A stretch of 64,000 bases of DNA, from positions 124,001-188,000 of the forward strand of contig NZ_MCGB01000097.1 in assembly GCF_001699815.1 (NCBI RefSeq), in the 5' to 3' direction. The stretch's first letter is position 1. Each line of letters starts with the position of its first letter. Shown piece after piece: positions 1,364 through 38,950 of this stretch. This DNA is from Ralstonia pickettii (GTDB taxonomy: Bacteria; Pseudomonadota; Gammaproteobacteria; Burkholderiales; Burkholderiaceae). The translations under genes and the position numbers were made by a program. The notes beneath the pieces were generated by a model. That model made no database searches and was not told the DNA's origin. It was given only the letters and a program-made list of their open reading frames with translations.

Positions 1364-1377
1364 TTGACCCGTATCAA
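1364..1377 (+). promoter_or_regulatory. FNR/Anr-type box upstream of the copper ATPase
   Basis: TTGACCCGTATCAA matches the FNR/Anr consensus TTGAT-N4-ATCAA at nine of ten fixed positions. It lies between the divergent Met-rich protein and P-type ATPase genes, about 86 bases before the ATPase start. Function is inferred from the match and location. Confidence 0.5.
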
Positions 1378-1463
1378 CCTCCCGTTCCGGGCGTGGAACA
1401 CACTGCAATCGTAGTTGTGCCCAGACCTAATCAAGTTAAACAATCAGCACATCCGAGGTTGGC

Positions 1464-3917
1464 ATGCCAAGCGATTCCATCGGACACCATCGTGGCGATC
1501 AAGTGGTCGGTCGGCAGAGCGCGCTGCGCATCGCTCAACCGGTCGTCGATGCCGGTCGCGTGCGCGATCCGGTTTGCGGTATGGAGATTTCCCCTGCGCA
1601 GGCAGCAGCCAGCACGGAAGTCGGGCATCAGCGCTATTGGTTCTGTTCTCGGCACTGTGAGAAGACTTTTCTCGCTGATCCGGCGCGATATCTCTCGCAT
1701 GACGCGCATGACGCGCATGACCACGACGGCGCGGCCCATGATCACGCGCCAACCGGAGTTGCTGCGGTGTCCGCAAGCACGAAGCAACTGGCCAAGGACC
1801 CCATCTGCGGAATGATGGTTGACAAGGCCACTGCCTTGTCCGCAGAGCGAGGAGGGCGAAAGTACTACTTCTGCAGCGAGAGCTGTCTGCACACGTTTGA
1901 GTCGCCGGAGTCCGAACTGAAGGCGATGAAGACGCGCGTCACCATTGCCTTGACCGGTGTGCTGGCGTTGGCGGTGTTACGCGCCGGGGCGTTTCTGGCC
2001 TTGGCTGCAGGTGCGACCCTGCTGACTTGGGCGCCCATTCCGGCGCTGCCTTGGTTCACATGGGGAATATGGCTGTTCCTGCTGGTGACCCCCGTACAGT
2101 TCATTGGAGGTTGGAGCTTCTACAAAGGCGCGTGGAACGCGGTCCGCACGCGCAACATCAACATGGATTTCCTGATCGCGCTGGGTACGTCGGTAGCGTA
2201 CTTCTACAGCGTGGTCGTGTTGTTCTTCCCATCCTGGTTGCCGGTGAAGGTGGCCGAACGCGATGTCTACTTCGAGGTGTCCGCGGTCATCATCGCTTTT
2301 GTGCTGCTGGGCAAGTACATGGAGGAGATCATCAAAAAGAAGTCCTCCGCCGCAGTCCGTCGCCTGCTTGACCTCAAGCCCGCTGTGGCGCACGTGATTC
2401 GCGATGGCAAGGAAGTCGAGATTCCCGCCGAAAGCATCATGGTCTCGGAGCTGGTAGTGGTCCGCCCCGGCGAGAAGATTCCAACCGATGGCAAGGTGAC
2501 GGACGGGCAAACCAGCGTGGACGAATCGATGCTGACCGGGGAGTCGATGCCAGTTGACAAGAAGCCTGGGGCAACGGTGATCGGCGGTACGCTGAACCGG
2601 TCAGGCGCCTTTACGTTCCAGGCGACCCGCATCGGTGCGGATACGGCGCTGGCGCAGATCATCAAGATGGTAGAAGACGCGCAGGCAAGCTCGGCACAGA
2701 TTCAGCGGCTGGCCGACCAGGTGACCGGCTATTTTGTGCCGGCGGTCGTGGGCGTTGCACTGCTGGCTGTCATCGGATGGACGCTCGCGGGGCATTTCCC
2801 GCAGGGGCTGCTCGCCTTTATTGCCGTGCTTATCATCTCCTGCCCGTGCGCTCTGGGTGTAGCGACGCCTGCCGCCTTGATGGTCGGCGTGGGAAAAGGC
2901 GCGGACGCCGGCATCCTGATCCGCGGCGGCGAAGTGCTCGAACGCGCTGAGAAATTGACCACCGTTGTCTTTGACAAGACGGGCACGATTACGCGCGGCG
3001 AACCGACCGTGACCGATATCCTGCCGCTTGGGACACACCAGGAAGCCGAGCTGCTCAGTATTGCTGCAGCGGTCGAGTCCGGCTCGGAGCATCCGCTGGG
3101 CGAAGCGATCGTCCGTGCCGCACAGCATCGTGAGCTGGCGACGCGTAAGGCGAACAACATCCAGGCGCTGTCGGGGATGGGTATTCAGGGGGCCATCGAC
3201 GGCCAGCAGGCCTGGCTAGGAAACCGGCGCATGCTCGCGCAGCAGGCCATCTCAGTCGATACGATTGAAGCGACGCTGGCCGGGCTGGAGGCTGATGGCA
3301 AGACAGCGATGCTGGCGGGGATCGGGCATGAACTGCTTGGCATCATCGCCGTGGCCGATACGGTCAAGCCAGAGGCGTCAGAGGCCATTGCCATGCTCAA
3401 GTCGCGCGGCATCAAGGTGGTTCTGCTCAGTGGGGATAACCAGCGCACCGCGCAAGCTATCGGGCGGCAGGTCGGCATCGAGCGCGTAATCGCAGAGGTC
3501 ATGCCGGAAGACAAGGTCAAGACCATCCAGGGCTTGCAGAAGGACGGCGAGGTGGTTGCCATGGTCGGCGATGGGGTCAACGACGCGCCCGCGCTCGCTG
3601 CGGCGGATATCGGCGTCGCTATCGGCTCGGGCTCGGATGTGGCCAAGGAGACCGGCAGCATCATCCTGATCCGCAATGACGTACGCGACGTGGCGGCTTC
3701 CATCGAGTTGTCCCGCGCCACGATGCGCAAGATCAAGCAGAACCTGTTTTGGGCCTTCTTCTACAACACCATCGGCATTCCGGTGGCGGCTTTCGGCCTG
3801 CTCAATCCCATCCTGGCGGCGGCGGCGATGTCGCTGTCCTCGCTTAGCGTGGTGGCGAATTCGGCCATGCTCAAGCGCGTGCGGCTGACAAGTAAGGCGC
3901 AGGAGGTGCCGGCATGA
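1464..3917 (+). CDS. Copper-exporting P1B-type ATPase with two YHS domains
   Basis: An 817-residue heavy-metal ATPase that would pump Cu(I) out of the cytoplasm. Instead of HMA domains the N-terminus has two YHS domains, DPVCGM at residues 35-40 and DPICGM near 112, each followed by a YWFC or YYFC stretch, joined by a His/Asp-rich linker ([16 protein letters not shown]). The core has the TM6 metal motif SCPCALG near 458, the phosphorylation site DKTGT near 503, an SEHPLG segment of the nucleotide domain and the hinge GDGVNDAP near 701. This architecture matches the CopF-like copper ATPases of metal-resistant beta-proteobacteria. The ATG at 1464 is preceded by GAGG. The gene opens a tight operon: the next gene overlaps its stop codon. 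Confidence 0.9.
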
Positions 3918-4132
3918 AACCCGCTGTCTGGTTCTGTGCCGCCGTGGCGACGGCGCTGGCCGCCGCCATCCTCTATTGGTACGGAATCTCACTGTTCTCG
4001 GTGCTGGTTGCGCTGATTCTCCTGGCCTGTCCGGTCTGGGTGATCTGGATGAGTTTGCGTCTTTCACGGCAAACCAGACGAGAGGTTGAGGCGGCAGTGG
4101 AGCGGGAACTGAAATCGCGTAGGAAGTCGTAA
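3914..4132 (+). CDS. Small two-helix membrane protein
   Basis: A 72-residue protein with two hydrophobic segments (about residues 3-25 and 26-47) and a strongly basic/acidic C-terminal tail ([20 protein letters not shown]). Its ATG overlaps the TGA of the copper ATPase (ATGA), so the two are probably translationally coupled. I do not recognise a family. Position and topology suggest an accessory subunit or membrane partner of the ATPase, which is inference only. Confidence 0.65.
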
Positions 4133-4146
4133 GACGGAGGTGGAAA

Positions 4147-4446
4147 ATGACCTGGCTTTCGCAAAACCTGATCTGGATCGTGCTGGGCGGATTGGTGGTG
4201 GTGTTCCTTTGGCGCAGCCAAGCGATGCGCTCCAGAGGCGGCGAGGGTGCCGGCATGATGCACGGCGCTCCAGATGCAAACAGTGACCCAGTGACCGGAA
4301 ACCGGGTTGACCCGACCCACGCCATCACGGCCAATTTTGAAGGGAAGACGTTCTACTTCGAGTCTGAGCAATCTCGCGCGGTCTTTCAGCAGAATCCTTC
4401 ACGTTTCGTCCACCAACACCATCGCCATCACGGCGGGTGCTGCTAG
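4147..4446 (+). CDS. Membrane-anchored YHS-domain protein with His/Cys tail
   Basis: A 99-residue protein with one N-terminal transmembrane helix (WIVLGGLVVVFLW). A linker then leads into a YHS-like domain (DPVTGNRVDPTHA ... GKTFYFESEQSRAVFQQNPSRF) and a metal-binding tail, HQHHRHHGGCC. The usual DPVCGM cysteine of YHS domains is replaced here (DPVTGN), so binding may rely on the tail. It follows the ATPase operon by 14 bases with GGAGG ahead of its start. It probably hands copper to, or buffers copper near, the transporter; the domain call is well supported and the role is inferred. Confidence 0.7.
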   Translation: MTWLSQNLIWIVLGGLVVVFLWRSQAMRSRGGEGAGMMHGAPDANSDPVTGNRVDPTHAITANFEGKTFYFESEQSRAVFQQNPSRFVHQHHRHHGGCC

Positions 4447-4490
4447 CCAGCCTTTTTTCAAGCCGATTGCCTGTGGACGAGGAGGCTCGC

Positions 4491-4742: not shown

Positions 4743-4744
4743 CG

Positions 4745-5665: not shown

Positions 5666-5822
5666 AACGGCCAGTTAGGTCAAAGAGAAAGCGCTGCCCG
5701 CTGAGGCTCGCGTTGCTAGTGCGCTTGGCCGGCAAATTCGAGCGCCCGTTGATTGGGCCATTGCCCATGTCTGGATCATCACAACCGCCCATTGGATATG
5801 CAGCTAAGAGTCGCCGGAAACC

Positions 5823-7706: not shown

Positions 7707-7892
7707 CACACCACCTCATCACTTCCTGTGAAAGTCGTGATGTCCGTCACCAGACAGTGCGGACACGGGCTGCAAATCATGCGGTGCAACTGCATGGGCC
7801 TTGTAGGCCAGCTTAGCCGCATCGGGCCGAACTTCGTTGTCGCAGGTCAGGTGAATTGAAGCGCGGGCTCTTTTCTGAGCCCGCGCGCAGAC

Positions 7893-8138
7893 TTACTTGG
7901 TATCGGGATGGAAATGCTTGGACTTGTCCCTGCCCTTGGTGTCCTCGGCGGGGGCGGCCGCCGGCGCGCTGGCGGCGGAAGCGCCAGCTTTCTCGGCGAC
8001 GTGCGAATGCGGTTTCATTTTGTGCGCGCCGGAGGCTTCGGATGCCATGGGCATGTCGTTGTCCGTGGCAAATACGCCGGCCGACATGGATGCGGCGGTT
8101 GCAAGCAGCAGTGCGGAAAGGATGGTTTTGCGGTTCAC
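7893..8138 (-). CDS. Small exported protein with Met/His-containing mature region
   Basis: An 81-residue protein read from a GTG at 8138, chosen because AGGAGA lies eight bases upstream and the peptide then begins with a standard signal sequence (MNRKTILSALLLATAAS). The mature part has NDMPMASEASGAHKMKPHSHV, an alanine-rich linker and a basic, His-containing end. This composition fits a periplasmic metal-binding or stress protein, but I know no family for it. An FNR-like box sits 104 bases upstream of the start. Confidence 0.6.
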   Translation of the reverse strand: MNRKTILSALLLATAASMSAGVFATDNDMPMASEASGAHKMKPHSHVAEKAGASAASAPAAAPAEDTKGRDKSKHFHPDTK

Positions 8139-8541: not shown

Positions 8542-8555
8542 TTGATCCAGGTAAA
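8542..8555 (+). promoter_or_regulatory. FNR/Anr-like box upstream of the exporter operon
   Basis: TTGATCCAGGTAAA has a perfect left half and a weaker right half (GTAAA for ATCAA). A possible -10 element, TGTAAC at 8575-8580, lies about 29 bases from the box centre, the spacing of class II FNR promoters. This would drive 8629 onward. Confidence 0.4.
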
Positions 8556-17121: not shown

Positions 17122-17135
17122 TTGAGCGACATCAA
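17122..17135 (+). promoter_or_regulatory. FNR/Anr-like box between AdoMet synthetase and lemA
   Basis: TTGAGCGACATCAA matches nine of ten fixed positions of TTGAT-N4-ATCAA. A TAGCAT hexamer at 17157-17162 lies about 31 bases downstream of its centre on the lemA side, fitting a class II promoter for 17278 onward. Confidence 0.4.
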
Positions 17136-22192: not shown

Positions 22193-24133
22193 CTATGTGC
22201 CTTGCGTTTTTTGGTCCGGTTTCCCCGTTGCAGTTGACTCCTCGATATTCGCGACGGGCTTGGGCGGAGGCATTGGCGTCACCTTCGCTGACAAAAACAT
22301 GTCCAGGTCTTGGCGGTCAACCACTTCCTTCTCGAGAAGTAATTGGGCCAGAGCATCGAGCTTGGTCCGCTGTCCTTCCAGCGTCGCTTGTACGCGATGA
22401 CTTGCTTCTGCCAATAGCTTACGGACTTCAGCATCAATCATCTGTGCGGTGCTCTCGCTGTATTCATTGCGTTCGCGCTGCATTAGCCCCGTCCCAGCAA
22501 AGAGCGGGTTCGGCATATTCTCGTACGTGGCCAGGCCCAGCTGGTCGCTCATGCCAAACTGGGTAATCATCTGCCGAGCCATGTCGGTTGCGCGCTGCAG
22601 GTCGTTCTGTGCGCCCGTGGATACGTCGCCGAAAATGAGCTGTTCCGCAATACGGCCACCGAGCAAGACATCGAGCCGGTCAAGCAGTTCGCTGCGCTTG
22701 AGCAGGTAGCGGTCCTCGGTTGGGGTCTGTTGCGTGTAACCCAACGCCGCAACGCCCCGCGGAATGATGGAAACTTTGGAGACACGGTCAGCCAGCGGCC
22801 GATGCTCCGCGACGATGGCATGTCCTGCCTCGTGGAATGCGATAGTTTCCTTCTCCTTCGGATTCATCACGCGGTTCTTTTTTTCCAGGCCGCCGACGAT
22901 CCGGTCAAGCGCCTCGTCGAAATCTGCCATCTCGACCATTTGCTTGCTCTTGCGCGCGGCAAGGAGCGCGGCTTCGTTAACCAAGTTGGCAAGATCGGCA
23001 CCTGCGAACCCCGGGGTCCGTCCGGCGAGTTTAGTCAGGTCGACCTCAGGAGCGAGGACAACGCCCTTGACGTGAACTTTGAGAATCTGCTCCCGTCCCT
23101 TGAGGTCAGGCCGGTCCAGTGCGACGTGGCGGTCAAAGCGACCGGGGCGAAGCAGGGCGGGGTCCAGTATCTCGGGTCGGTTTGTGGCGGCCATGATGAT
23201 GACGCCTTTGTTGCTATCAAAACCGTCCATCTCGACCAGAAGCTGGTTCAGTGTTTGTTCGCGCTCCTCGTTGCCGCCGACCGCATTCAGTGCTCGCGTC
23301 TTTCCGAGTGCGTCAAGCTCATCAATGAAGATGATGCAGGGGGCTTTGGTTTCGGCTTGCTTAAAGAGATCGCGGACCCGTGCTGCACCCACACCAACGA
23401 ACATCTCGACGAAGTCGGAGCCGCTCATGCTGAAGAATGGCACGCCGGCTTCGCCTGCCACGGCCTTTGCCAATAAGGTCTTGCCAGTGCCCGGGGCCCC
23501 AACCAGCAGCACGCCCTTGGGAATTTTTCCGCCCAGGCGCTGGTACCGCTGAGGATCTTTCAGGAAGCTAACAATCTCCGACAGCTCCTCCTTGGCTTCG
23601 TCGATTCCAGCCACGTCGGCAAAAGTCACGCCGGTCTCCTTTTGCATGTAGACCTTTGCCTTGCTCTTGCCAATTTCCATCATGCTGCCGGCGGCGCCGC
23701 CCACGCGCTTGATGAGAAAGCTCCAGATACCGAAAAAGATGACGGCCGGCACAACCCACGAGAGGATCGTGCTCAGCCATTTGTTGTCGGGCTGCCCGAC
23801 GAAGCGCACCTTTGCCGCTTCGAGCTCCTGCACCAGCTCAGGATCGGCCACTCGAAGCGTGGAGAAGGCGTGGTCGCCCTTTGCCTCTCGGCGGATTTCC
23901 TCGATCTGCTGCTTGGCAAGGAGATTGTCGATACCTTCTGTCGAGAAGGTTCCGCTGATAGCCTGCTCACCAATAGCCACGTCCTTGAGCTTGCCAGCCT
24001 TCAGTAGGACCTTGAAATCGCTGTATGGGATCGTCTCGACATGCCCCGACACGAAGAGCGTCTGGATTGCAAGCATGGCCAGTATGGTCACGAGCACGTA
24101 CCAGAGGGAGAACTGTTGCTGTCGCGGTTCCAT
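22193..24133 (-). CDS. ftsH: Accessory ATP-dependent zinc metalloprotease FtsH
   Basis: A 646-residue membrane-anchored AAA+ protease. The start at 24133 ([20 protein letters not shown]) has GGAGAA upstream; the in-frame extension to 24337 lacks support. Two N-terminal helices flank a periplasmic domain. The AAA module shows [13 protein letters not shown] near residue 209, [11 protein letters not shown] and the pore loop [15 protein letters not shown]. The zinc site HEAGH is near 431. The tail differs from housekeeping FtsH, ending in a Pro/Lys-rich segment. Accessory FtsH copies of this type are known on stress and heat-tolerance islands. An FNR-like box lies 140 bases upstream. Confidence 0.93.
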
Positions 24134-24511: not shown

Positions 24512-26107
24512 ATGGCTGAGGTAACGAAGAACGAGCACCGTAGCGCATACCTGGTTGGCAGCGGCATTGCGTCATTGTCGGCTGCCGTGCTGCTGATTCG
24601 CGACGCAGGCTTCAAGGGGGAGAACATCCACATCTTGGAGGAACAGCAGGTGGCCGGTGGTGCGCTCGATGGCTCCGGTGATCCGCACAAAGGCTATGTA
24701 ACTCGGGGCGGTCGCATGTTCACCGAAGAGACTTATGTCTGTCTGTGGAACGTGCTCGACAGCATTCCGTCGCTGGATGATCCGAAAATCAGTGTCAAGC
24801 AGCAGGCCTGGGCCTTCAACGCCGAATGGCGCTCGGATTCACACGCCCGGCTGATCGACGGGCAACGCCGTATCCTCGACGCTGCCGATCTGGGTTTCAA
24901 CCTCCATGACCGGTTGGAGATCATGCGATTGCTGGCCACGCCAGAAGGGCTGCTGCATACGCTTCGCATTGAGGACTGTTTCTCGCCGCACTTCTTCGAG
25001 ACCAACTTCTGGGCCATGTGGCGTACGACCTTCGCCTTCCAGAACTGGCACAGCGCGATCGAACTCAAACGCTATATGTTGCGCTTCTTGCAGGAGTTCC
25101 CGCGTATCCACACGTTGGCCGGCGTACGGCGCACGCCGCTGAACCAGTATGACGCGATCGTGCGGCCGATGGAGCAATGGCTGAAACAGCAGGGTGTGGT
25201 GTTCGAATATGGCACAAAGGTGGAGGATGTCGACTTTGTTGAAACCGGTGACGGCCGGCGAATTGGACTGCTGCGCGTGGTGCGCGGCGGACAGCCGATG
25301 GCCTATGACGTGCGGCAAGAGGATCTGGTGCTCATCACCATCGGCTCGATGACCGCCGACGCGTCTTATGGGGACGACCACCATGCACCGGAACTGGTGC
25401 GCGACAAACGCGATGGCGCCTGGACTCTGTGGGAGACCATGGCCCGTAAGGAACCTGGGCTCGGGCGGCCGAATGCGTTCTGTGGCAACGTCGACGAAAG
25501 CAAGTGGGAGTCGTTCACCTTGACGATGCGCAGCCCGGCGCTTGTGCACCGGATTGAGACCTTTACCGGCAATGCGCCAGGCACCGGCGGTCTGATGACG
25601 TTCAAGGATTCGAGTTGGCTGATGTCGATCGTCGTGCCTCACGCGCCGCACTTCGCCGGACAGCCGAAAGACATGTACACCCTGTGGGGCTACGGGCTCT
25701 TCGTGGACAACAAGGGCGATTACATCGACAAGACGATGGCCCAGGCAACCGGCCAGGAAATCCTCACCGAGCTGCTGCACCATTTGCATTGCGAGGACAT
25801 TCTTGACGAGGTCTGTCGTACCACCACTGTGATCCCGGTGATGATGCCGTACATCACCAGCGAATTTGAGCGCCGCGAGCCTTCGGATCGGCCGCCAGTG
25901 ATCCCGCACGGAGCGAAGAACTTCGCGCTGCTTGGGCAGTATGTTGAGATCCCTCAGGACGTAGTGTTCACCGTCGAATATTCGGTTCGCGGCGCGATGC
26001 ACGCGGTTTATGGGCTGCTGGGCTTGAAGAACGAGATCCCGGCCATTTACCACGGGATTGCTGACCCAGGCGCTGCGTTTGCGGGCCTGAAGACGTTGTT
26101 GAGTTGA
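24512..26107 (+). CDS. ohyA: Oleate hydratase (FAD-dependent fatty-acid double-bond hydratase)
   Basis: A 531-residue flavoprotein that adds water to cis-9 unsaturated fatty acids (oleate to 10-hydroxystearate). The FAD motif GSGIASLSAA is at residues 16-25, followed by HILEEQQVAGGALDGSGD and RGGRMFTEETY. Other conserved stretches include FWAMWRTTFAFQNWHS and GLLGLKNEIP near the end. The length fits the short branch of the family. The start at 24512 has AGAGGA seven bases ahead. The enzyme acts on membrane-derived fatty acids, as does the CFA synthase encoded at 32186, so the island carries two ways to alter unsaturated acyl chains. Confidence 0.92.
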   Translation: MAEVTKNEHRSAYLVGSGIASLSAAVLLIRDAGFKGENIHILEEQQVAGGALDGSGDPHKGYVTRGGRMFTEETYVCLWNVLDSIPSLDDPKISVKQQAWAFNAEWRSDSHARLIDGQRRILDAADLGFNLHDRLEIMRLLATPEGLLHTLRIEDCFSPHFFETNFWAMWRTTFAFQNWHSAIELKRYMLRFLQEFPRIHTLAGVRRTPLNQYDAIVRPMEQWLKQQGVVFEYGTKVEDVDFVETGDGRRIGLLRVVRGGQPMAYDVRQEDLVLITIGSMTADASYGDDHHAPELVRDKRDGAWTLWETMARKEPGLGRPNAFCGNVDESKWESFTLTMRSPALVHRIETFTGNAPGTGGLMTFKDSSWLMSIVVPHAPHFAGQPKDMYTLWGYGLFVDNKGDYIDKTMAQATGQEILTELLHHLHCEDILDEVCRTTTVIPVMMPYITSEFERREPSDRPPVIPHGAKNFALLGQYVEIPQDVVFTVEYSVRGAMHAVYGLLGLKNEIPAIYHGIADPGAAFAGLKTLLS

Positions 26108-26205: not shown

Positions 26206-26625
26206 ATGTTCTTCCACTCCCGACATCTACGCCGCTGGGCAGCTCAAATGCTACTGGTGTGGCTGTTGGGTCTGGCCGTCGGCATCGCAAACGCGTGCGC
26301 TGTCGCGGATGCAGGTAAGGCCGCAGCGCCGGCATCTGGCCACGTGTCAGCCCACAGTCATGGACACCATGCGGATGCCGACGATGATGGCTGTGACGAT
26401 AGCGGCAAGATTGCCTGCCACAGCTTCTGCGAAAAGTCCTCAACCAGCATTCCCCGTGTGCTGTCGGATCATGACAAGCCTCTCATTCCGGTGGCCGTGC
26501 CATTACCGATGAGCATGGCATCCACGCCGGAGGTGGACCGCTGCAGTGTGCACCGTCAGTCCAATCCCCGGCCAGCGGACAAGTTCGCGTCTATACCAAT
26601 CGTCTTCCTCCGGTTGACGCTATAG
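26206..26625 (+). CDS. Small His/Cys-rich exported protein, DUF2946/CopL-like
   Basis: A 139-residue protein with an N-terminal signal or anchor helix (MLLVWLLGLAVGIANAC). A metal-ligand-rich region follows: SAHSHGHHADADDDGCDD and GKIACHSFCEK. The tail is Pro-rich. The HxHxHH cluster and paired cysteines resemble small copper-responsive exported proteins (CopL/DUF2946 type) and parallel the 291-662 protein. It sits just after a perfect FNR-type box and before the HMA chaperone gene, though 253 bases separate it from that operon. Confidence 0.6.
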   Translation: MFFHSRHLRRWAAQMLLVWLLGLAVGIANACAVADAGKAAAPASGHVSAHSHGHHADADDDGCDDSGKIACHSFCEKSSTSIPRVLSDHDKPLIPVAVPLPMSMASTPEVDRCSVHRQSNPRPADKFASIPIVFLRLTL

Positions 26626-26878
26626 CGCTCTGTCGCTGTTTGGCAGTGCGCGGCTTTGTCTTACGTATCGCCTTGACGCGCATCCAGTGCGGACACCGCC
26701 AAAGGTGCGTTGCAACACGCCGTTCCATCGTCAATGCACTGAACAAAAGCGGCCTTGGTCGGCATTCGCCCCGAGCGTCTCGATTGCGTTCTTTCTCTAC
26801 TGCCGGAAAGTGTCTGGCGCTGTGTTGAACGCAGTCGCAGTGAGATTTTCAACGTCACCTCCTAAAAGGATTTCTTCC
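26626..26878. other. Gap before the HMA-chaperone operon
   Basis: No gene seen. It must hold the promoter of the long operon 26879-37940, but no metal-regulator dyad was recognised. TTGACGCGCATCCA at 26673-26686 is a weak FNR-like match (eight of ten). Confidence 0.4.
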
Positions 26879-27172
26879 ATGGACACTATCGAACTGAAGA
26901 TCAAGGGCATGAGCTGCGGCTCTTGCGTCTCGTCGGTTACTCATGCACTGCAGCGAGTGCCTGGTGTGGATGCCGTCGACGTGGATCTGGCGCGCGGTAT
27001 CGCGCGCGTCAGCGGTAACGCCCAGGCCGCGCCCGCAATGCTGGCCGCGCTGGCAGCAGCCGGTTACGAAGCCGAGTCGCTTAGCACTGGCGCCGGAGCG
27101 AAGACGGAGCATGCCCACCATGGTGACGTCCCAACCGGCACTGCTCACAAGAGCGGTGGATGCTGCCACTGA
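26879..27172 (+). CDS. HMA-domain copper chaperone (CopZ-like) with His/Cys tail
   Basis: A 97-residue cytosolic protein with one heavy-metal-associated domain: GMSCGSC (residues 9-15) gives the Cu(I)-binding CxxC, with VPGVDAVDVDLARG and AAAGYEAE completing the fold. A C-terminal extension (HAHHGDVPTG ... KSGGCCH) adds more ligands and resembles the HHRHHGGCC end of the 4147 YHS protein. The start at 26879 has AAGGA upstream. It probably shuttles copper to a P-type ATPase; the one encoded at 34181 lies in the same operon. Confidence 0.82.
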   Translation: MDTIELKIKGMSCGSCVSSVTHALQRVPGVDAVDVDLARGIARVSGNAQAAPAMLAALAAAGYEAESLSTGAGAKTEHAHHGDVPTGTAHKSGGCCH

Positions 27173-27245
27173 TAGACCGCTAGGAGGGGCGGCCGGGCAG
27201 TGCACCGATCGGCGTCCCTAACCTTGACCTTGCGAAGGAGTTCTC

Positions 27246-27560
27246 ATGTCGTCGCTTCGATCTCTCTCCAGGCACCGCCAGTCGGGCCGCATCGGTTCAG
27301 GGGCCATCTTCATTGCGTTTGCGTTGATTGCCCTGTTCTTCCTGTTCACCGAGCACCGGGCACATCTGTTCGGCTGGTTGCCGTTTCTTCTACTGCTGGC
27401 TTGTCCGCTGCTGCACCTCTTCCACGGGCACGGTGGCCATGGAGGGCACGCAGGTCACGAGGACCAGCCGCGCGGTTCCGATTCCGGAAGTAGCCGCCCA
27501 TCGGGGTCGACGGCCAGCGAACAACCGCCCGTTCAGGGCGCTCAGCATCACCACCACTAA
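27246..27560 (+). CDS. DUF2933 family small membrane protein (copy 2)
   Basis: A 104-residue protein with two hydrophobic segments around [20 protein letters not shown] and CPLLHLFHGHGGHGG, the same core as the 4491 protein, and a longer His/Ser-rich tail ending HHHH. GAAGGAG precedes the ATG. It is 23 bases from the following ICMT gene, repeating the gene pair at 4491-5407. The function is unknown; metal association is inferred from composition and context. Confidence 0.75.
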   Translation: MSSLRSLSRHRQSGRIGSGAIFIAFALIALFFLFTEHRAHLFGWLPFLLLLACPLLHLFHGHGGHGGHAGHEDQPRGSDSGSSRPSGSTASEQPPVQGAQHHHH

Positions 27561-27583
27561 GTTCTTCTCAGAGGAGCGCCATC

Positions 27584-28249
27584 ATGGACCAATCGACACC
27601 TCCCGCCTATGGCTTATGGTCGCTGGTAATCATCAATTCCCTCGTTTTCATCATCTTCGCGTTCAGCTTCGCCAAGCCACAAAGCCCGCGCGACTGGCGT
27701 TCGTTTGGCGCGTTCTCTGCGTTCCTGGTGGCGCTATTCACCGAGATGTACGGCTTCCCGCTGACGATCTACCTCCTGTCGGGTTGGCTGAGCGCGAAGT
27801 TCCCCGGCGTGAATTTCATGTCGCATGACGCTGGCCACCTGCTGGAGGTGATGTTCGGCTGGCGCGCCAATCCGCATTTCGGGCCGTTCCATCTGCTGAG
27901 CGCTATCTTCATCGGCGGTGGCTTTTGGCTATTGTCGGCCGCTTGGGCGGTGCTTTACCACAACCAGCGGAGCCATACGCTGGCGACCACCGGCGCCTAC
28001 TCCCGTATCCGGCATCCGCAGTATGTGGGCTTCGTTTTGATCATGTTCGGTTTTCTACTGCAGTGGCCGACCATCCTGACACTGCTGATGTTCCCAGTGC
28101 TGGTGGTCATGTACGTGCGTTTGGCCATTACGGAAGAGAAGTGGGCGGAGCGCGAATTTGGGGAGGAGTGGGCGCACTATGCGTCGCACACCCCGCGGTT
28201 CATCCCGAATTTTGGCGACAAGCAAGCGGATCGCCACCACCACGCATGA
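27584..28249 (+). CDS. ICMT family membrane protein (copy 2)
   Basis: A 221-residue polytopic membrane protein closely similar along its length to the 4745 product: [52 protein letters not shown] and the AdoMet-site motif RIRHPQYVGF. The basic His-containing tail differs. It belongs to the isoprenylcysteine carboxyl methyltransferase group; the bacterial substrate is unknown. It lies between DUF2933 and the beta-CASP nuclease gene, all within one tightly spaced operon. Confidence 0.75.
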   Translation: MDQSTPPAYGLWSLVIINSLVFIIFAFSFAKPQSPRDWRSFGAFSAFLVALFTEMYGFPLTIYLLSGWLSAKFPGVNFMSHDAGHLLEVMFGWRANPHFGPFHLLSAIFIGGGFWLLSAAWAVLYHNQRSHTLATTGAYSRIRHPQYVGFVLIMFGFLLQWPTILTLLMFPVLVVMYVRLAITEEKWAEREFGEEWAHYASHTPRFIPNFGDKQADRHHHA

Positions 28250-28265
28250 CAAAAAGGGGGAGGCG

Positions 28266-29630
28266 ATGAAGCTCAGTTTTCACGGTGCGGCCGGCACAGT
28301 GACCGGCTCAAAGTATTTGGTGGAGCATCAGGGGCAGCGCCTGCTGGTTGATTGCGGGTTGTTCCAGGGCTACAAGCAGTTGCGATTGCTGAACTGGGAG
28401 CCGTTGCCGTTCAGCGCCGCCGACATCGATGCGGTGGTGCTGACACACTCCCATCTGGACCATGCCGGTGCGTTACCGTTGCTCGTGAAACAGGGCTTCC
28501 GGGGCCGGATTCTGGCGACGCCCTCGACAATCGAACTATGCGGTCTGCTGTTGCCCGACAGCGGGAGAATCCAGGAGGAGGACGCCGCCTATGCGAACCG
28601 GCATCACACCTCCAAGCACGCCACGGCTTTGCCGCTGTACACGGAGGACGACGCACGTCGCGCAATGGAACAGTTGCACCGATTGCCTTTCGACCAGTGT
28701 GTGGACGTCGTCCCCGACGTTACGGTGACCTTGCGCCCGGCTGGGCATATTCTCGGCGCGGCCTCGGCCGAACTGACAGCGGGGCAGACGACAGTGCTGT
28801 TCTCCGGAGACGTTGGCCGCCCCGACGACCCGGTGATGCGTGCGCCTGCGCCGGCTCCCAAGGCAGACTACATCGTTGTCGAATCGACTTATGGGGACCG
28901 GCTACACGAACCGGTACCCAATGCGCAGGCCGTGCTCGGTGAGGCGATTGCTCGCACAGCACACCGTGGCGGCATGGTCGTGATTCCGGCGTTTGCGGTG
29001 GGGCGTGCACAGTTGCTGCTGCATTTGATCCACAAGCTGAAGCAACAGGGCGCGATTCCAGACCTGCCTGTTTTTCTCGACAGCCCGATGGCAATAGATG
29101 CAACCGAGATCTATCACCGCCATCACGCCGAACATAAGCTGTCGCTCGAAGATTGCCTCGGGATGTACAAAGCTGCGCGCATGATCAGGACCCCGGAGGA
29201 ATCGCGGGCGCTGGCTGGGCTGGCCCTCCCGGCTGTGATCATCTCGGCCAGCGGCATGGCCACCGGCGGCCGCGTGCTGCACCATCTGAAGCATCTGGCG
29301 CCGGACCGGCGCAACACCATCATCCTGGCCGGTTATCAGGCTGGGGGGACACGCGGCGCGCGGCTGCAGGCTGGTGAGCGAAGCCTGCGCATTCACGGTG
29401 AGGACGTCGCCGTGCGTGCCGAAGTGATTTCACTGCAGGGCATGTCGGCGCATGCCGATGCAAGCCAATTGATCGAGTGGCTGGGCAGTGCGCCAGCGGC
29501 GCCGCGCTCGGTGTTCGTCACCCATGGCGAGCCGGGGCCGGCTGATGCGATGCGCCAGCGCATCGAGCGGGAACTTGGGTGGTCCGCCAGCGTTCCGTTG
29601 TTGGGACAGCACGTGGAGTTCGATGTATGA
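28266..29630 (+). CDS. Beta-CASP metallo-beta-lactamase-fold ribonuclease-like protein
   Basis: A 454-residue protein of the YSH1/CPSF73-like group. The metal-binding motif THSHLDHAG is near residue 58, GHILGAAS carries motif 3 and [10 protein letters not shown] motif 4. The beta-CASP insert contains [13 protein letters not shown] and the closing [11 protein letters not shown] and HGEPG motifs. Such bacterial proteins are RNA endo/exonucleases acting in the cytoplasm. The start at 28266 has GGGGAGG. The stop overlaps the next start (ATGA). I infer a part in RNA turnover feeding the nucleotide-phosphorylase gene downstream. Confidence 0.85.
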
Positions 29631-31141
29631 GGAACCCTCGCCACAGGGCAAGTCTTGCCGTGCGTCGGATGGGCATCGAGACGCAGCAGGAATATGTCGT
29701 CTACATGCATCGAGACTGCCATGTTTGCCGCTCCGAGGGTTTCGAGGCGCAGACGCGAGTACTGATTAGCCTGAACGGACGCTCGATCATCGCCACGCTG
29801 AACGTTGTCGATCCGACCTTGCTGGAGTTGGGGGAGGCGGCGCTTTCGAACAGCGCGTGGCGAGCGCTGGCGCCCGCGCCGGGCGACCGGATCACGATCT
29901 CGCATGCCCCGACGCTGGACTCAATGAGCCAGGTGCGGGCGAAGATCTACGGCCACAGGCTCGACGCGTCGGCTCTGGACTCGATCATTAGTGACGTCGC
30001 CGCTGGCAGCTACCCTGGGACACATATCGCCGCTTTTCTAAGCGCCTGCGCCGGCGGGCGGATGGATTTGCAGGAGACGATCGATCTGACGCGAGCGATG
30101 CTGGCCGCGGGCAAGCGGCTCGACTGGGGGCATGCACCGATCGCGGACAAGCACTGTGTGGGTGGATTGCCGGGAAACCGCACGACGCCGATTGTCGTGT
30201 CGATCATCACCGCGGCCGGGCTCACGATGCCGAAGACGTCGTCAAGGGCCATTACCTCGCCGGCTGGCACCGCCGACGTGATCGAAACGATGACGCCGGT
30301 GGCGCTCGATTTGGAGCAGATGCGCCGCGTTGTCCAACGCGAGGGCGGCTGCTTTGTCTGGGGAGGCTCGCTGGCGCTCAGCCCGGCCGACGACATGTTG
30401 ATCCGCGTCGAGCGCCCGCTGGACCTCGACAGCGACGCGCAGCTCGTGGCATCTGTGCTGTCGAAGAAGATCGCTGCCGGCGCTACCCACTCCGTGATCG
30501 ATGTGCCGGTCGGGCCGACCGCCAAGGTGCGCAGTGACGCAGACTACGAGTGCCTGAAGCAAATGCTGGAGCAGGTAGCGCAGGCCTTTGATTTGCACTT
30601 GCAGGTAGTGCGTACGGACGGGACGCAGCCGGTGGGCCGTGGCATTGGTCCCTCACTGGAGGCGCACGACGTGCTGGCAGTCCTTCAGCGTGCCGAGCGC
30701 GCGCCCGAGGATCTGAGCGTGCGCGCTGTCGCATTGGCTGGACAACTGTTGGAATTTTGCGGTCACAGCGAGCCGGGTACTGGCGTCTTGGTCGCTCAGC
30801 GGTTGCTTGATAGCGGCGCCGCGTGGGCCAAATTCCAGGCGATCTGCAAAGCGCAAGGGGGCTTACGCGAGCCGCAGCGGGCGCGGCTACGCGAGCCTGT
30901 GCTGGCCGAACGTGACGGGATGGTACGTGAGATCGACAGCCGGCGGTTGGCTCGCGTGGCCAAGCTCGCCGGGGCACCGAAGGCACCCGCTGCCGGGCTC
31001 GAACTGCATGTCAAGCTGGGGGATCGCGTCGAGCGAGGTATGCCGCTGTTCACCGTGCATGCCGAAGCGCTCGGCGAGTTGGACTACGCGTTCGACTACC
31101 TGGAGGCTCACCCGCTGATCGATGTGGGAGATTCGAGATGA
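29627..31141 (+). CDS. AMP phosphorylase / thymidine phosphorylase family enzyme
   Basis: A 504-residue protein of the long, archaeal-like branch of nucleoside phosphorylase family II. The N-terminal beta domain (residues 1-100) is an extension typical of AMP phosphorylase. The phosphate-binding signature is [20 protein letters not shown], followed by [20 protein letters not shown]. This AMPpase form differs from the DeoA motif. Archaeal AMP phosphorylase splits NMPs to base plus ribose 1,5-bisphosphate. The start overlaps the nuclease stop and its own stop overlaps the PRPP-synthetase start, so coupling is strict. The exact substrate (NMP or nucleoside) cannot be settled from sequence. Confidence 0.82.
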
Positions 31142-32043
31142 CGCCACTGATTTTTGCCATGCCGGGCAATGAAGCGATGGCAGAGAAGCTGGCTTCGGCG
31201 TTGGGCGCAGAGCGCGGGACTACGACGGTGCGGCGCTTTCCGGATGGAGAGTCGTATGTGCGGGTGGAGTCTGCCGTGGAGGGGCGGCGGGTCGCCATCG
31301 TCTGCACGCTAGACCGGCCGGACGACAAGCTGATTCCGTTGCTGCTGTTGGCGGCGGCCGCCCGGGAGAACGGTGCGACCGACGTTGGTCTGGTCGCACC
31401 TTACCTCGCCTACATGCGACAGGATAGTTGCTTCCAGCCGGGTGAGACGGTGAGTGCACGGCATTTTGCAGCCTGGTTGTCGCGTGGATTTGATTGGCTG
31501 GCAACAGTCGATCCCCACTTGCACCGCATCACCAAGTTGTCGCAGGTCTATGTAATCCCAACGCGTCACGTCCACGCGGCGCCGGCTGTGGCGGCATGGC
31601 TGCGCGCCCATGTGACACGCCCGGCGCTTGTGGGCCCTGACGAGGAGAGCAACCAATGGGTGGCCGATGTCGCAAGCAGGGCGGACGCGCCCATGGTGGT
31701 GCTGCACAAGGTCCGCAAAGGTGACCGGGATGTCGAGGTTTCGGTGCCGGATGTGGAGCGCTGGCGCGACCACACGCCGGTGCTGGTCGATGACATTGTC
31801 TCCACCGGTCGCACGATGGCCGAGACCATTGGTCATCTGCGGCGCGCGGGCTTGGCCGCGCCTGTGTGCATCGCGATTCACGCGGTGTTTTCAGGCAACG
31901 CGGTTCAGGATTTGGAGTCCACTGGGGCCGGGCTGGTGGTGAGCTGCGACACGGTTGTCCATCCCACCAATGGAATCTCCGTTGCCCCGGACCTAGCGTC
32001 CGCGGTTCGTGAACTCATGCAAGACCCCGGGGGTGCCACATGA
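31138..32043 (+). CDS. Ribose-phosphate pyrophosphokinase family protein
   Basis: A 301-residue PRPP synthetase homologue, shorter than housekeeping Prs (about 315). It keeps the pattern [36 protein letters not shown] and the PRPP loop [13 protein letters not shown]. It shows sequence differences in the flexible loop ([12 protein letters not shown] replaces the K/R-rich HKxR of Prs in part). It makes PRPP from ribose 5-phosphate and ATP, or may use a related sugar phosphate. Overlap with the AMP-phosphorylase gene suggests that phosphorolysis products are channelled back into nucleotide synthesis. Confidence 0.85.
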
Positions 32044-32189
32044 GTGCCAAGACTCCGCACGTTCACTTCGAGATAGATCTGGCCGGATTTTGCAAAGCCG
32101 CGATTCCGATGTCGGGTTGGCGCTTCATCGTGTCAATTGGCGGAGAGGACCGCGACGAGCCATCAACCCAACGGGAGGGCAAGAGATGA
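32040..32189 (+). CDS. Tiny protein (49 residues) coupled to both neighbours
   Basis: An ATG at 32040 overlaps the PRPP-synthetase stop (ATGA). The frame runs 49 codons to a TGA at 32187-32189, which overlaps the CFA-synthase start (again ATGA). The peptide starts [17 protein letters not shown] and has a central segment CKAAIPMSGWRFIVSIGGED and a charged end; no transmembrane helix is clear. Overlaps at both ends are strong evidence that it is translated. I know no family. It may be a small regulator or subunit, or a leader that couples translation across the junction. Confidence 0.6.
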   Translation: MSAKTPHVHFEIDLAGFCKAAIPMSGWRFIVSIGGEDRDEPSTQREGKR

Positions 32190-33529
32190 ACAGCACCAAG
32201 GCATTTATTGGCAGCGTTCCTTCGACCGACACCGAGCCGGCGCTACGCATCCTGCGTCGGTTGCTCGCTGGGATGGAGAAGCCGCCCGCACTGCGGCTGT
32301 GGAACGACACGCTGCACGGGCACGATACGGCGGTCGATTTCACGTTGGTGGTGCGGGACCCCAGCCTGTTGCGTCAGTTGGTGGTGGCGCGCAGTCCCCT
32401 TTTATTGGCTGACGCGTACTTTCGGGGCGTGCTCGACATCGAGGGAGACCTGTACGGCGCGCTCCGGTTGAAGAACCATTTCGAGTCGATCCAGTTGTCG
32501 TGGCGCGACAAGCTCGCGCTGTTAAAGGACGCGTTAATGCTGCCCGCTCCGGACCTGGGTGAGATCAAACCGGATGCGGGCTTCGCATCCCGGGTCGCCC
32601 GGCGCTTCGCGCACCGGCATTCGCGCCACAGCGATCGCGCCGCGATCTCGTTCCACTATGACGTGTCCAACAAGTTCTATGGGTTGTGGCTGGACGAGGA
32701 GCGGGTGTACTCCTGCGCCTACTTCGAGCAGCCCTCCGATTCGCTGGACACGGCGCAGCGCAACAAGCTTGAGCACGTTTGCCGCAAGCTGCGCCTGCGG
32801 CCCGGCGAACGGCTGCTGGATATCGGCTGCGGCTGGGGGGCGCTCGTATGTTGGGCCGCGCGCGAGCACGGTGTGCACGCCCACGGCATCACCCTAAGCG
32901 AGCGACAGCTCGAATACGCCCGCGAGCGCATTCGGATCGAAGGGTTACAGGATCGCGTCACGGTGGAGTTGCGCGATTACCGTGATCTGGAAGGCGAGGG
33001 TGTCTACGACAAGGTTTCCAGCATCGGGATGTTCGAGCACGTCGGCCTGCGCAACCTGCCGGCCTACTATGCGGTGGTGCGTCGGATGCTCAAGCCGGGC
33101 GGCCTATTCTTGAACCACGGCATCACGCACGACGAGGAAGGGTGGAACAAGACAGCTGCCACCGAGTTCATCAATCGCTATGTATTTCCCGACGGCGAGC
33201 TTGATTGCATCAGCAACATCCAACTCGGCATGGAGCGCGCGGGCTTTGAGATCCATGACGTCGAGGGACTGCGCCCGCACTACGCGATGACCTTACGGCA
33301 CTGGGTGCATCGCCTGGAGGCTCAGCGCGATGCGGCGATCGCTGAAGTTGGAGAAGCCGCCTATCGCGTCTGGCGCCTGTACATGGCGGCCTGCGCGTTG
33401 GAGTTCGAGGCCGGTGGCTCCGGCATCTATCAAATCCTGGCGTCCAATCGCCACCCGGGTAAATGGCCTGTGCCGATGACACGGCGTGATCTGTACCGCA
33501 GTCGACCGCATTGGGATTGGGGGAACTAG
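32186..33529 (+). CDS. cfa: Cyclopropane-fatty-acyl-phospholipid synthase
   Basis: A 447-residue enzyme that transfers a methylene group from AdoMet to double bonds of membrane phospholipid acyl chains. The N-terminal lipid-binding domain contains LLADAYFRGVLDIEGDL. The methyltransferase domain has FHYDVSNKFYGLWLDEERVY, the AdoMet loop LLDIGCGWGAL, SIGMFEHVG and LNHGITHDEEGW. The C-terminal HYAMTLRHWVHRLE is typical of the family. The start at 32186 overlaps the tiny gene. It is an accessory copy, cotranscribed with metal and nucleotide genes, and would harden membranes under stress. Confidence 0.92.
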   Translation: MNSTKAFIGSVPSTDTEPALRILRRLLAGMEKPPALRLWNDTLHGHDTAVDFTLVVRDPSLLRQLVVARSPLLLADAYFRGVLDIEGDLYGALRLKNHFESIQLSWRDKLALLKDALMLPAPDLGEIKPDAGFASRVARRFAHRHSRHSDRAAISFHYDVSNKFYGLWLDEERVYSCAYFEQPSDSLDTAQRNKLEHVCRKLRLRPGERLLDIGCGWGALVCWAAREHGVHAHGITLSERQLEYARERIRIEGLQDRVTVELRDYRDLEGEGVYDKVSSIGMFEHVGLRNLPAYYAVVRRMLKPGGLFLNHGITHDEEGWNKTAATEFINRYVFPDGELDCISNIQLGMERAGFEIHDVEGLRPHYAMTLRHWVHRLEAQRDAAIAEVGEAAYRVWRLYMAACALEFEAGGSGIYQILASNRHPGKWPVPMTRRDLYRSRPHWDWGN

Positions 33530-33533
33530 CGCT

Positions 33534-34180
33534 ATGTGCTTTTCCGCGACGGCCAGCTTTGGCTCCGGCACGCTACTGCTGGCAATCGGCACCGTGACGC
33601 TGCGTATGGCGCGCTGCCCGGCGGAGCGCCCTTATGCCGCCATCCCATTGCTGTTTGCGATCCAGCAGCTTGTCGAGGGGGTGGTCTGGCTCAGTTTTGG
33701 TGGCCCCGCTTGGCTTAACTTTGTTGCTACGCAGGTGTACTCATTTTTCTCCCACGTACTGTGGCCGGTGTACGTCCCCTTAGCGGCATGGCTGCTAGAG
33801 CCCCGGGGTCCGCGCCGCCGAGGGTTGTTGGCCTTTGTGGTTATGGGTCTGGCTGTGGGTGCATACCTGTTGTACAGCCTGGTGGTCAACCCGATTCAGG
33901 CGCGCCCGATGGCAGGCCATGTGGACTACCAGTCCCCGCATTTCTACATTGTCGCGTCGATGACGCTGTACCTGCTTTCCACGACGGTGAGCCTGTTGCT
34001 CTCCAGCCATGTTTGGGTCAAGGTGTTCGGGGCGCTCACGCTGGCCGCTTCGTTCACCGCCTACGTTTTCTATGCCCATTGGTTCATTTCGGTGTGGTGC
34101 TTCTTCGCCGCGCTGCTGAGTGGCGCTGTCGCACTGCACTTCATCGCACTGCGTTCGATTCCCCAACAACGGATTCCCTC

Positions 34181-34184
<4 letters not shown>
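33534..34184 (+). CDS. DUF6629-like polytopic membrane protein
   Basis: A 216-residue protein starting [19 protein letters not shown], a start shared by a family of small membrane proteins of unknown function (DUF6629). About seven hydrophobic segments fill the chain; charged residues are few. Its stop overlaps the start of the P-type ATPase (ATGA), so the two are probably made together. It starts four bases after the CFA-synthase stop. No catalytic motif is visible. Confidence 0.7.
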
Positions 34185-36625
<2,441 letters not shown>

Positions 36626-36632
36626 AGGCATC

Positions 36633-37940
36633 ATGCTTAATCAATCGTCCGCCACTCCCGCACCCCTCGATGCGCGGGCCGTCAGGCCAGCGTTGGTCGT
36701 GCTGCTTGCTCTGGTATTTGTTGTCTCTCTCGGCTATGGAGTCGGGCTGCCGTTGCTGCAGTTGTATCTGGCGCAGTACCTGCCTGGTGCGACGCGGCAA
36801 ACGCTGGCGTGGCACGTTGGCATGCTGGGAGGAATCTACACGCTCGCGCTGTTCATCTTTGCGCCGTGGTGGGGCCGCCAGTCGGATCATCGTGGGCGGG
36901 CGGCGGCGCTGACTACCGGCTTCGCTATGTTTGTGCTGGGAACCGCGATGGTCGCGCTAATACCCAGTCTCATGGCGATCTATGGCGGTCGATTGATCGC
37001 CGGGGCGGGGGCAGCGGCTATCGTGCCCGGTGCCCAGGCCTATGTGACCGACATCAGCAATACCGAGGACAGGAGTCGGCGCTTTGTGCTGATCGGTAGT
37101 GCATCGTTCGTTGGCTTTCTCGCGGGCCCCGCGTTCGGTAGTTGGCTTGCCGGGCCGCTGATGGGCATGCCTGCAGGCCAGATGCCCAGTATGGTCAACT
37201 GGCCCGCGTTGGTGGTCGCATCGGTCGGACTGCCACTTCTGTTGGCGGTTCGCCGCTGCCTGAGCACGACCAAGCCGATCTTGCTCGACAGCGGCTCGGT
37301 GCAGATGACCCGGCAGCGCAAGCGCTTCGTTGCTGTATCGATGCTGTTAGCCCTGCTGGCGTCCTTTGCCGCAGGTACCTTCGAAGTCGGCTTCAGCCTG
37401 TTTGGTGGCCAGACACTGCGCCTACCCAACTCGATGATTGCGGTGATGTTTGTCACGTGCAGCCTGGCGATGCTCGCCGCGCAGGCTTTGCTGCTGCTTC
37501 CGGCAGTGCGCAAGCATATCGACCATCGCTGGGTTGCCGGCGCATTTGCCGGCTCAGCGGTGGCACTGGGCTTTGCCGCACTGGTGCCCGATGCCGCCGC
37601 GCTTGGGCTGCTAATCGCCGTGGTGGCTACCGGCGTCGGCATGATTGGACCGGTGCTGTCTTATGAGTTGCTGGAAGGTGACCGTAGTTTCGCTGGGTCG
37701 CTGTTGGCAAGGCAGGCAGCCGCAGGCAACCTGGGGCAGGCACTAGGTTCGGTGAGTGCCGGTACCCTGTTTGGATGGAATACGTTCGCTCCATTTTGGG
37801 CAGCGGCGGCTGTGTTGCTGCTTGGTAGTGTGGCTGCACTGCGTTGGTGGGGCGCGGCGCGGCAGGCTGAACGTCAGCCAGAGCAGCGCAGCTTTCAAGC
37901 AGAAGGAGAAAGGCAGACGAGGGAAGGGCGGGGCGCATGA
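36633..37940 (+). CDS. Major facilitator superfamily transporter
   Basis: A 435-residue transporter with 12 predicted hydrophobic segments in two halves. The A-type motif between TM2 and TM3 reads APWWGRQSDHRGRAAALT (GxxxDxxGRR pattern), as in drug/proton antiporters of the MFS-1 group. RLIAGAGAAAIVPGAQAYVTD matches the TM4-TM5 region. The tail is hydrophilic and Glu/Arg-rich. It starts seven bases after the P-type ATPase stop, ending the long operon that began at 26879. The substrate is unknown. Confidence 0.85.
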   Translation: MLNQSSATPAPLDARAVRPALVVLLALVFVVSLGYGVGLPLLQLYLAQYLPGATRQTLAWHVGMLGGIYTLALFIFAPWWGRQSDHRGRAAALTTGFAMFVLGTAMVALIPSLMAIYGGRLIAGAGAAAIVPGAQAYVTDISNTEDRSRRFVLIGSASFVGFLAGPAFGSWLAGPLMGMPAGQMPSMVNWPALVVASVGLPLLLAVRRCLSTTKPILLDSGSVQMTRQRKRFVAVSMLLALLASFAAGTFEVGFSLFGGQTLRLPNSMIAVMFVTCSLAMLAAQALLLLPAVRKHIDHRWVAGAFAGSAVALGFAALVPDAAALGLLIAVVATGVGMIGPVLSYELLEGDRSFAGSLLARQAAAGNLGQALGSVSAGTLFGWNTFAPFWAAAAVLLLGSVAALRWWGAARQAERQPEQRSFQAEGERQTREGRGA

Positions 37941-38105
37941 ACAACAATGAAAATTCCTCGTGCTATGTGCGCGCATTGTGCTTTTGAGGCCGCTTTCCAA
38001 TGGCAGCGCACCGAACCGGCAATTCGTGGATGGTGTAACACGTGACGGCGGATGTGACCTATCAGCGCCATTTGCTCCTTCCAATTGAACTGGGGTTCAA
38101 AGCCG

Positions 38106-38432
38106 TTATTGCATAGCTCGACAGGCTTGCGCGCATTCCTCACACGCACGTGCGCAAGTTTGACAGTGGTCGTGTGCATGCTTCGCGCACTCTGCGCCGC
38201 ATTTCTGACAGATGGTTGCGCATAATACGCAAACGGCTTTGGCTTGGCTGCTGCCGCGTGCCATATAACCAACGGCAGTCTGGCACAACTCCGCGCAATC
38301 GAGATCCAGGCGAATACAGTCGGCAAGTTCCGCCGGGCTTGGCTCGTTGAGGCAAGCCACAGCACAGTGCAAGCATGTGACCTGACACGCGTTACAGGCG
38401 TCGAGACATTCTTGATAGGTTTGGTGAGACAT
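38106..38432 (-). CDS. Four-helix-bundle copper-storage protein (Csp/DUF326)
   Basis: A 108-residue cytosolic protein with 17 or so cysteines in the spacing of Csp proteins: YQECLDACNACQVTCLHCAV, DCIRLDLDCAELCQ, VCVLCATICQKCGAECAKH and HCQTCARACEECAQAC. In characterised Csp3 proteins such cysteines line a four-helix bundle that stores many Cu(I) ions. No signal peptide is present, matching the cytosolic Csp3 type. The start at 38432 has AGGAGAA upstream. It is a lone minus-strand gene between the MFS transporter and the copper-resistance locus. Confidence 0.88.
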   Translation of the reverse strand: MSHQTYQECLDACNACQVTCLHCAVACLNEPSPAELADCIRLDLDCAELCQTAVGYMARGSSQAKAVCVLCATICQKCGAECAKHAHDHCQTCARACEECAQACRAMQ

Positions 38433-38669
38433 CGTCGTTCTCCTGGGTGGTTGGCGTACCGACATGGCATGCGCACCCACGAGAAAGCAAGGACGGCGCC
38501 TTGTGCCAAAGAGGCGGGGCACGTTGAGTCGCAAATGGCCAGATCTGTCCGAACCGTAATCGGACCGCCATGTGGCGGTCATGTGCGCTTTCCGCCAGTG
38601 GCCCATGGTGAACCGAAGTGTTCGCGCTCTCGGCGGAATGCGGTCGGCACGTGGAGACGCGCGTGCGCC

Positions 38670-38735
38670 ACGACGACCACAAGGCCATGTCGCGGGGGTG
38701 TGCCGGATCGCATTGGGCAGCAAATCACCAACGTA
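38670..38735 (-). pseudogene. Remnant of a copS-like sensor kinase (N-box region)
   Basis: About 65 bases closely resemble the copS segment at about 39783-39850. On the minus strand the remnant encodes LLPNAIRHTP, matching LLSNAIRHTPRHG of the intact kinase. One extra G in a G-run shifts the frame after that. It marks a lost second copy of the regulator or a duplication remnant. Confidence 0.6.
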
Positions 38736-38936
38736 GCAGCGCCACAGCAAAGTGGTCTAGAACTAGCCTCTGGTGGACGGTGTCGAGCCGGTGCCGAACC
38801 CGTACACCTCTATGCGTCGTGACATCACCCAGCGGGCGCTACCGCGCGCACCAACAACTTCGGTACGCATTGCCATATCGTGCTGTTTTGGGACACCGAT
38901 TACCATCTCATCGCACGCTAGTTGCTCGTGGGTGGT

Positions 38937-38950
38937 CTGACCTGCATCAA
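38937..38950 (+). promoter_or_regulatory. FNR/Anr-like sequence upstream of the lone copC
   Basis: CTGACCTGCATCAA matches eight of ten fixed positions of the FNR box, with a perfect right half. It lies 60-73 bases before the copC start at 39010. Confidence 0.3.

Follow-up and report, generated by a model that had tools for sequence, protein, structure and literature searches.

Predicted FNR/Anr-type boxes ahead of copper and stress genes on a likely mobile island of Ralstonia pickettii

Control of respiration and stress genes by FNR/Anr regulators is already well known. One of the closest described systems is that of Herbaspirillum seropedicae, which has three Fnr orthologues with sites mapped by ChIP-seq and RNA-seq and targets that include fixNOP and universal stress proteins (PMC5934665). 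Another is the lxa locus of Burkholderia cenocepacia, which is patchily distributed among strains and has FNR-family regulators proposed for it (PMC4981469, PMC9104464, PMC4505428; further background in PMC3759415, PMC6127331 and PMC9733578). Here we analyze a 64-kb stretch (the window) of contig C97 from a 5.24-Mb genome of Ralstonia pickettii, which carries a predicted copper-resistance island, and nine FNR/Anr-like boxes (TTGAT-N4-ATCAA) listed in it by a preliminary description, each called below by its first position. Seven of them (1364, 8542, 17122, 20363, 24273, 26127 and 38937) are probably FNR/Anr class II activator sites, as predicted from the sequence, at which the predicted oxygen-sensing FNR proteins of the host would likely switch on the predicted copper-ATPase, exporter, lemA, ppk2, ftsH, 26.2-kb and copC genes of the island at low oxygen.

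The likeness to H. seropedicae consists in several FNR proteins with cluster cysteines per genome and in palindromic boxes of 14 bases; the difference is that our sites come from sequence alone, and that the copper island bearing them, itself likely mobile, has no FNR gene of its own. The preliminary description also pointed to a low-oxygen Burkholderia locus of comparable gene content. This likeness holds for the families of the FtsH-type peptidase, the metallo-beta-lactamase (MBL)-fold protein, the ABC exporter and the cation ATPase. However, a Pfam scan of 40 window proteins found no universal stress protein, so that the window is not the lxa locus proper; it holds copper genes instead, and there is no FNR gene on the contig. 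Closer to lxa is a second and fuller lxa-like locus on contig C113 (L038–L042), with six FNR boxes of the full type and a gene for an FNR-type protein inside it; it was likened to lxa by Pfam names where scanned and otherwise by eye, using the gene list in PMC4981469. The window shares with C113 the families of FtsH (81% protein identity), phosphorylase (62%), Prs (53%), MBL (49%) and ABC exporter (40%), a comparison made with C113 and not with J2315. The C113 ftsH gene is likewise preceded by a box, and the box neighbours on this contig encode FtsH, a NuoF-like protein, Hsp20 and Usp. Among mobile stress-tolerance islands, another genomic island with an additional ftsH is PACGI-1 of Pseudomonas aeruginosa clone C, from which the window differs by its copper genes and FNR boxes and by the lack of an HSP20 domain in the 40 scanned proteins. 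In the titles and abstract beginnings covered by our literature search, with the 2013 lxa paper lying outside, we found no report joining FNR/Anr class II boxes with copper islands; nor did it yield a report that combines any three of PPK2, oleate hydratase, FNR and FtsH.

All nine sequences are present in the window at the positions listed, one being an exact match (26127, the only one for which the word 'exact' in the preliminary description is true), five having one mismatch and three having two (Table 1). The claim that all of them lie between genes also holds, for nine of nine, once the start of ftsH is corrected by hand: 24273 overlaps the mechanically called ftsH open reading frame (ORF), whose likely start codon, the ATG at 24133, is preceded by a Shine-Dalgarno-like GGAG. 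Genes were called with a simple codon-usage script, which falls short of a full annotation; two starts were shifted by hand (ftsH to 24133, copC to 39010), in both cases to an ATG that follows a Shine-Dalgarno-like stretch.

The boxes are non-random and exceed chance expectation. Seven matches with at most one mismatch occur in the window, compared with a mean of 1.04 and a maximum of 4 in 100 shuffles; six of the seven are listed sites and the seventh (4784) lies inside an ICMT-family gene. With a weight matrix trained on nine of the 18 sites outside the window, these nine being picked for their typical neighbours, five window sites score above 15 bits, while 0.025 are expected in the 8.9 kb of intergenic and 0.133 in the 55 kb of coding sequence (24273 was counted here as coding, because the mechanical ftsH start was used). 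The looser TTGA-N6-TCAA is found seven times in the window (six listed sites and the intragenic 58772), against an expectation of 0.12 intergenic and 0.6 coding. The pattern TTGAY-N4-RTCAA has 23 matches in the whole genome, six of them on C113, compared with 7 for the reversed control; five fall in the window, none intragenic with the hand-corrected ftsH start, which against the genome's own density corresponds to a Poisson P of ~1e-5.

The spacing of the boxes points to class II promoters. With the strand of each box set by the downstream gene, a TANNNT hexamer starts 21 or 22 bases past the box at five of the nine sites (8542, 17122, 20363, 26127 and 38937), and near-matches with two of the three -10 key bases are found at 1364 (CACACT) and 24273 (AATACT, minus strand). 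The mean -10 score of the window was reached in none of 20,000 draws of nine random intergenic positions (P 5e-5), the 21–22 spacing having been chosen only after the first table had been inspected. This spacing is the class II position, with the box near -41.5, and in H. seropedicae the box of fnr1 is likewise class II, centred at -42 (PMC5934665). For eleven control sites from outside the window the mean -10 score is 2.18, similar to that of the window, and the combination of box and TANNNT occurs 15 times genome-wide (3 in the window), compared with once in the reversed control. The AATACT hexamer noted earlier by 24273 is confirmed on the minus strand at spacer 21, and therefore this box faces ftsH. 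The earlier list of downstream genes is likewise sustained for the metal ATPase, the exporter, lemA, ppk2, ftsH and the 26.2-kb genes; S-adenosylmethionine synthetase has to be removed from it, as the -10 element of 17122 lies only on the lemA side. Could the matches be chance occurrences or ordinary -35 elements of sigma-70 promoters (TTGACA-like), given that several boxes start with TTGAC? The counts far exceed those of the shuffles and reversed controls, and the gap from TTGACN to the -10 element is 29–30 bases, not about 17, which leads us to reject the -35 interpretation and makes this explanation as a whole hardly conceivable.

The nearest named loci, as judged by the phosphorylase, are a contig of a Ralstonia metagenome-assembled genome (100%) and R. 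pickettii SSH4 (82%). SSH4 is placed in the same genus as the source genome, and its version of the island has diverged to 75–83% DNA identity in matching blocks longer than 1 kb. The box alignment takes in 1364, 8542, 17122 and 26127; the specified bases are identical at 38/40 positions, compared with 6/16 for the middle four bases, 45/84 for the 21-base spacer and 47/120 for the 30 bases upstream. At 1364 both the box core (10/10) and CACACT are the same in SSH4, 8542 has its counterpart TTGATCTAGATAAA in the same place, and 17122 corresponds to TTGAGGCGTATCAA with TAGACT at spacer 21. Even odd letters are preserved (TTGAG at 17122, TAAA at 8542). The genes behind 20363, 24273 and 38937 are missing from that place in SSH4.

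We surveyed 38 loci found with the phosphorylase together with two Variovorax plasmids. In eight of the nine loci with ftsH in reach, L061 being the exception, a box precedes the ftsH match by 73–99 bases. Of the 19 ICMT-bearing loci, seven show one no more than 1.5 kb ahead of the gene, always followed by TANNNT at 21; two of these seven represent one strain. In 902 kb of related loci there are 53 boxes, one of them inside a called gene, and two in the reversed control; the 53 are not independent, because related loci share boxes by descent. This count covers 31 of the 38 loci (L048, L049, L057, L068, L078, L081 and L084 being omitted), the two Variovorax plasmids, the window, SSH4 and C113, with the ftsH start trimmed by hand. 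Plasmid pBVIE02 of Burkholderia vietnamiensis has four full-type boxes between annotated genes, three of them with TANNNT, and in pMTS1 of Cupriavidus P-10 a box precedes the orthologue of the first ATPase. As a side observation, pBVIE02 (strain G4; L132) is typed as conjugative and carries genes for DUF3141, metK, ftsH, an ABC1-type kinase and a metal ATPase. For PPK2, seven non-identical loci were compared, of which L157–L159 are ftsH-ppk2 pairs covered from ftsH onward: a box with TAGCAT at 22 lies ahead of ppk2 in L154, a box is found further upstream in L156 and L090, one box lies downstream of ppk2 in L158, and L155 has no full-type box.

Which regulators would bind these boxes? An alignment of FNR proteins matches three proteins in the genome at E 1e-20, none of them on C97, and among 23 matches to HTH_Crp_2 in the genome none is on C97. 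All three share C-X2-C-X5-C and a fourth cysteine, and their recognition helix carries LETVSR. The NCBIfam Fnr cut-off of 228 is passed by the protein encoded near COX1 (244); the other two miss it (217 and 205), and the one scoring 205 matches solved FNR-type regulators at 1e-46. FNR-type matches are present in 16 of 16 Ralstonia genomes, and in G010, G013 and G015 the FNR-type genes are on contigs other than that of the island; therefore any action on the boxes would be in trans. Dnr/NnrR-type and other CRP-family regulators bind near-identical boxes, so that a nitric oxide-responsive or other member of this family might be the one that binds here, with nitrogen oxides or something else, and not oxygen, as the signal. 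The genome does encode other CRP-family proteins, e.g. L021, which is without the FNR cysteine motif and whose best NCBIfam matches are far under the cut-offs. We nevertheless consider this unlikely, since the three proteins matched by the FNR alignment all have the cysteines of the cluster together with an FNR-type recognition helix, and typical FNR targets, COX1 and NRDD among them, lie next to sites elsewhere in the genome. The typical neighbours of the outside sites include a P-type copper-like ATPase with COX1 on C4 (this COX1 is probably of the cbb3 type), NRDD and Usp, as well as two chemotaxis receptors.

Several observations weigh against an FNR-driven island, in addition to the after-the-fact choice of the spacing. 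Two of the listed sites have to be given up or doubted: 26673, with two mismatches and none of the three -10 key bases, is rejected as an FNR site, and 8242 has one of three key bases and is not conserved in the locus comparison with SSH4; for the rest, the sequence supports FNR/Anr-type boxes in a class II layout, with a copper-type ATPase and stress genes downstream. Among the 11 outside control sites just four have the full TANNNT, three of the 23 genome-wide sites lie inside called genes (L004, L007 and L036), and some neighbours are untypical (two binding proteins, a Rieske oxygenase and 2-phosphosulpholactate phosphatase). No box within 1.5 kb ahead was found in 12 of the 19 ICMT-bearing loci, this stretch being mostly out of reach in L048 and L055. 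Finally, six Polaromonas loci (L054, L058–L060, L062 and L063) with the same metal gene cluster have one box in 127 kb, and the five genomes behind them all have FNR-type matches by similarity (one in two fragments). That Polaromonas retains the genes almost without boxes fits the possibility that the boxes are remnants or see little use, with the island governed mostly by the copper system that it carries itself (CopRS, MerR-type) and FNR control marginal; copRS is indeed present in the window, and the Ralstonia copies of the island (99.8–100% identical) are too similar to reveal selection. Yet SSH4 keeps the bases of the boxes while the neighbouring bases have drifted, and we regard marginal FNR control as very improbable. 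Motif and weight-matrix scans of the window found no full-type box ahead of copRS or copA.

Table 1. Boxes and principal genes of the window
Feature	Position	Strand	Details
FNR-type box TTGACCCGTATCAA	1364..1377	+	one mismatch; CACACT 21 bases downstream; first P-type ATPase gene 86 bases on
P1B-type metal ATPase, copper type	1464..3917	+	Pfam; YHS domain, CPC, YN and MxxSS motifs
Small ORF upstream of DUF3141	7893..8138		starts 103 bases past the 8242 box
Doubtful FNR-type box TTGACATGGATCAA	8242..8255	-	one mismatch; no -10 at class II spacing
Degenerate box TTGATCCAGGTAAA	8542..8555	+	two mismatches; TAACGT at spacer 21; precedes small membrane-protein ORF (8629), then LolA-like/ABC/FtsX exporter genes
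Box TTGAGCGACATCAA	17122..17135	+	one mismatch; TAGCAT at spacer 21; faces lemA
Box TTGACTCACATCAA	20363..20376	+	one mismatch; TAAGCT at spacer 22; ppk2 161 bases on
Polyphosphate kinase 2	20538..21398	+	Pfam; NCBIfam TIGR03707
FtsH protease	22193..24133	-	Pfam; 81% identical to C113 FtsH
Box TTGATGAAGGTCAA	24273..24286	-	one mismatch; AATACT at spacer 21; likely ftsH start (24133) 139 bases on
Oleate hydratase (MCRA family)	24512..26107	+	Pfam
Exact box TTGATTTGTATCAA	26127..26140	+	TAGGCT at spacer 22; precedes the 26.2-kb genes
26.2-kb genes	26206..37940	+	small ORF, HMA protein, DUF2933-like, ICMT, MBL/beta-CASP, phosphorylase, Prs, cyclopropane-type methyltransferase, membrane protein, second metal ATPase, MFS (Pfam)
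Weak match TTGACGCGCATCCA	26673..26686	+	two mismatches; no -10; unsupported as site
Degenerate box CTGACCTGCATCAA	38937..38950	+	two mismatches; TAAGCT at spacer 21; likely copC start (39010) 59 bases on
CopC-family protein	39010..39396	+	Pfam

The first ATPase scores 591 bits with TIGR01511 (copper-translocating; cut-off 397), and passes the model of the cadmium subfamily too. The second metal ATPase (34181–36625) has CPD in place of the CPC usual for copper ATPases and retains YN and MSGSS. The names HMA and DUF2933 rest partly on analogy with Variovorax annotation. The lemA gene (17280–17900) is read in two frames, which indicates a frameshift or a sequencing error. A trio of beta-CASP MBL, thymidine-AMP-phosphorylase-like protein and Prs (28266–32043) is conserved, occurring in loci of Variovorax, Polaromonas and Pontibacter as well, and could serve the salvage of RNA-derived nucleotides without respiration.

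The copper island is likely to be mobile. Adjoining the copper genes, the stretch 53687–63926 carries an integrase, a ChrB-like gene, a Tn3-type transposase, a resolvase and mercury-type genes, and its Tn3-type part is also copied in contigs of G010 and G013. PPK2 is 100% identical in four of the 16 Ralstonia genomes, the source genome included, and blocks of the island are 99.8–100% identical in the three others, G010, G013 and G015, the copy in G013 being interrupted by the Tn3-type stretch; because of this similarity these blocks were not used as evidence of selection. In G010 the island sits on the third contig (336 kb), of which 20 kb at one end match plasmid VirB4-, VirB9- and TraD-type genes and another 20 kb gave no plasmid match; this contig is likely a plasmid.

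The scenario we propose is as follows. When oxygen falls, [4Fe-4S] FNR dimers of the host would bind the boxes of the island and recruit RNA polymerase. Copper pumping by the products would follow; PPK2 might remake nucleotides from polyphosphate, and MBL, phosphorylase and Prs might do so from RNA or AMP, while FtsH might remove damaged membrane proteins, so that together the products would support survival without respiration. The island itself would move between hosts. Does a mobile copper-resistance island double as a portable kit for surviving anoxia, without a sensor but with FNR boxes at most operons, which in a host with FNR would tie copper export, the phosphorylation of nucleotides from polyphosphate, membrane-protein clean-up and RNA/nucleotide salvage to a fall in oxygen? 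We consider this quite possible, and put it forward tentatively.

At low oxygen copper shifts to its more toxic cuprous form, and Cu(I) dominates. What would be less expected is that a likely mobile copper island with no oxygen sensor of its own carries conserved class II boxes for the sensors of its hosts. Relatives that are easy to grow, such as Cupriavidus, would allow the predicted regulon to be tested directly. If the prediction is true, copper export would be matched to conditions under which Cu(I) prevails, and lxa-like persistence at low oxygen could travel along with metal resistance.

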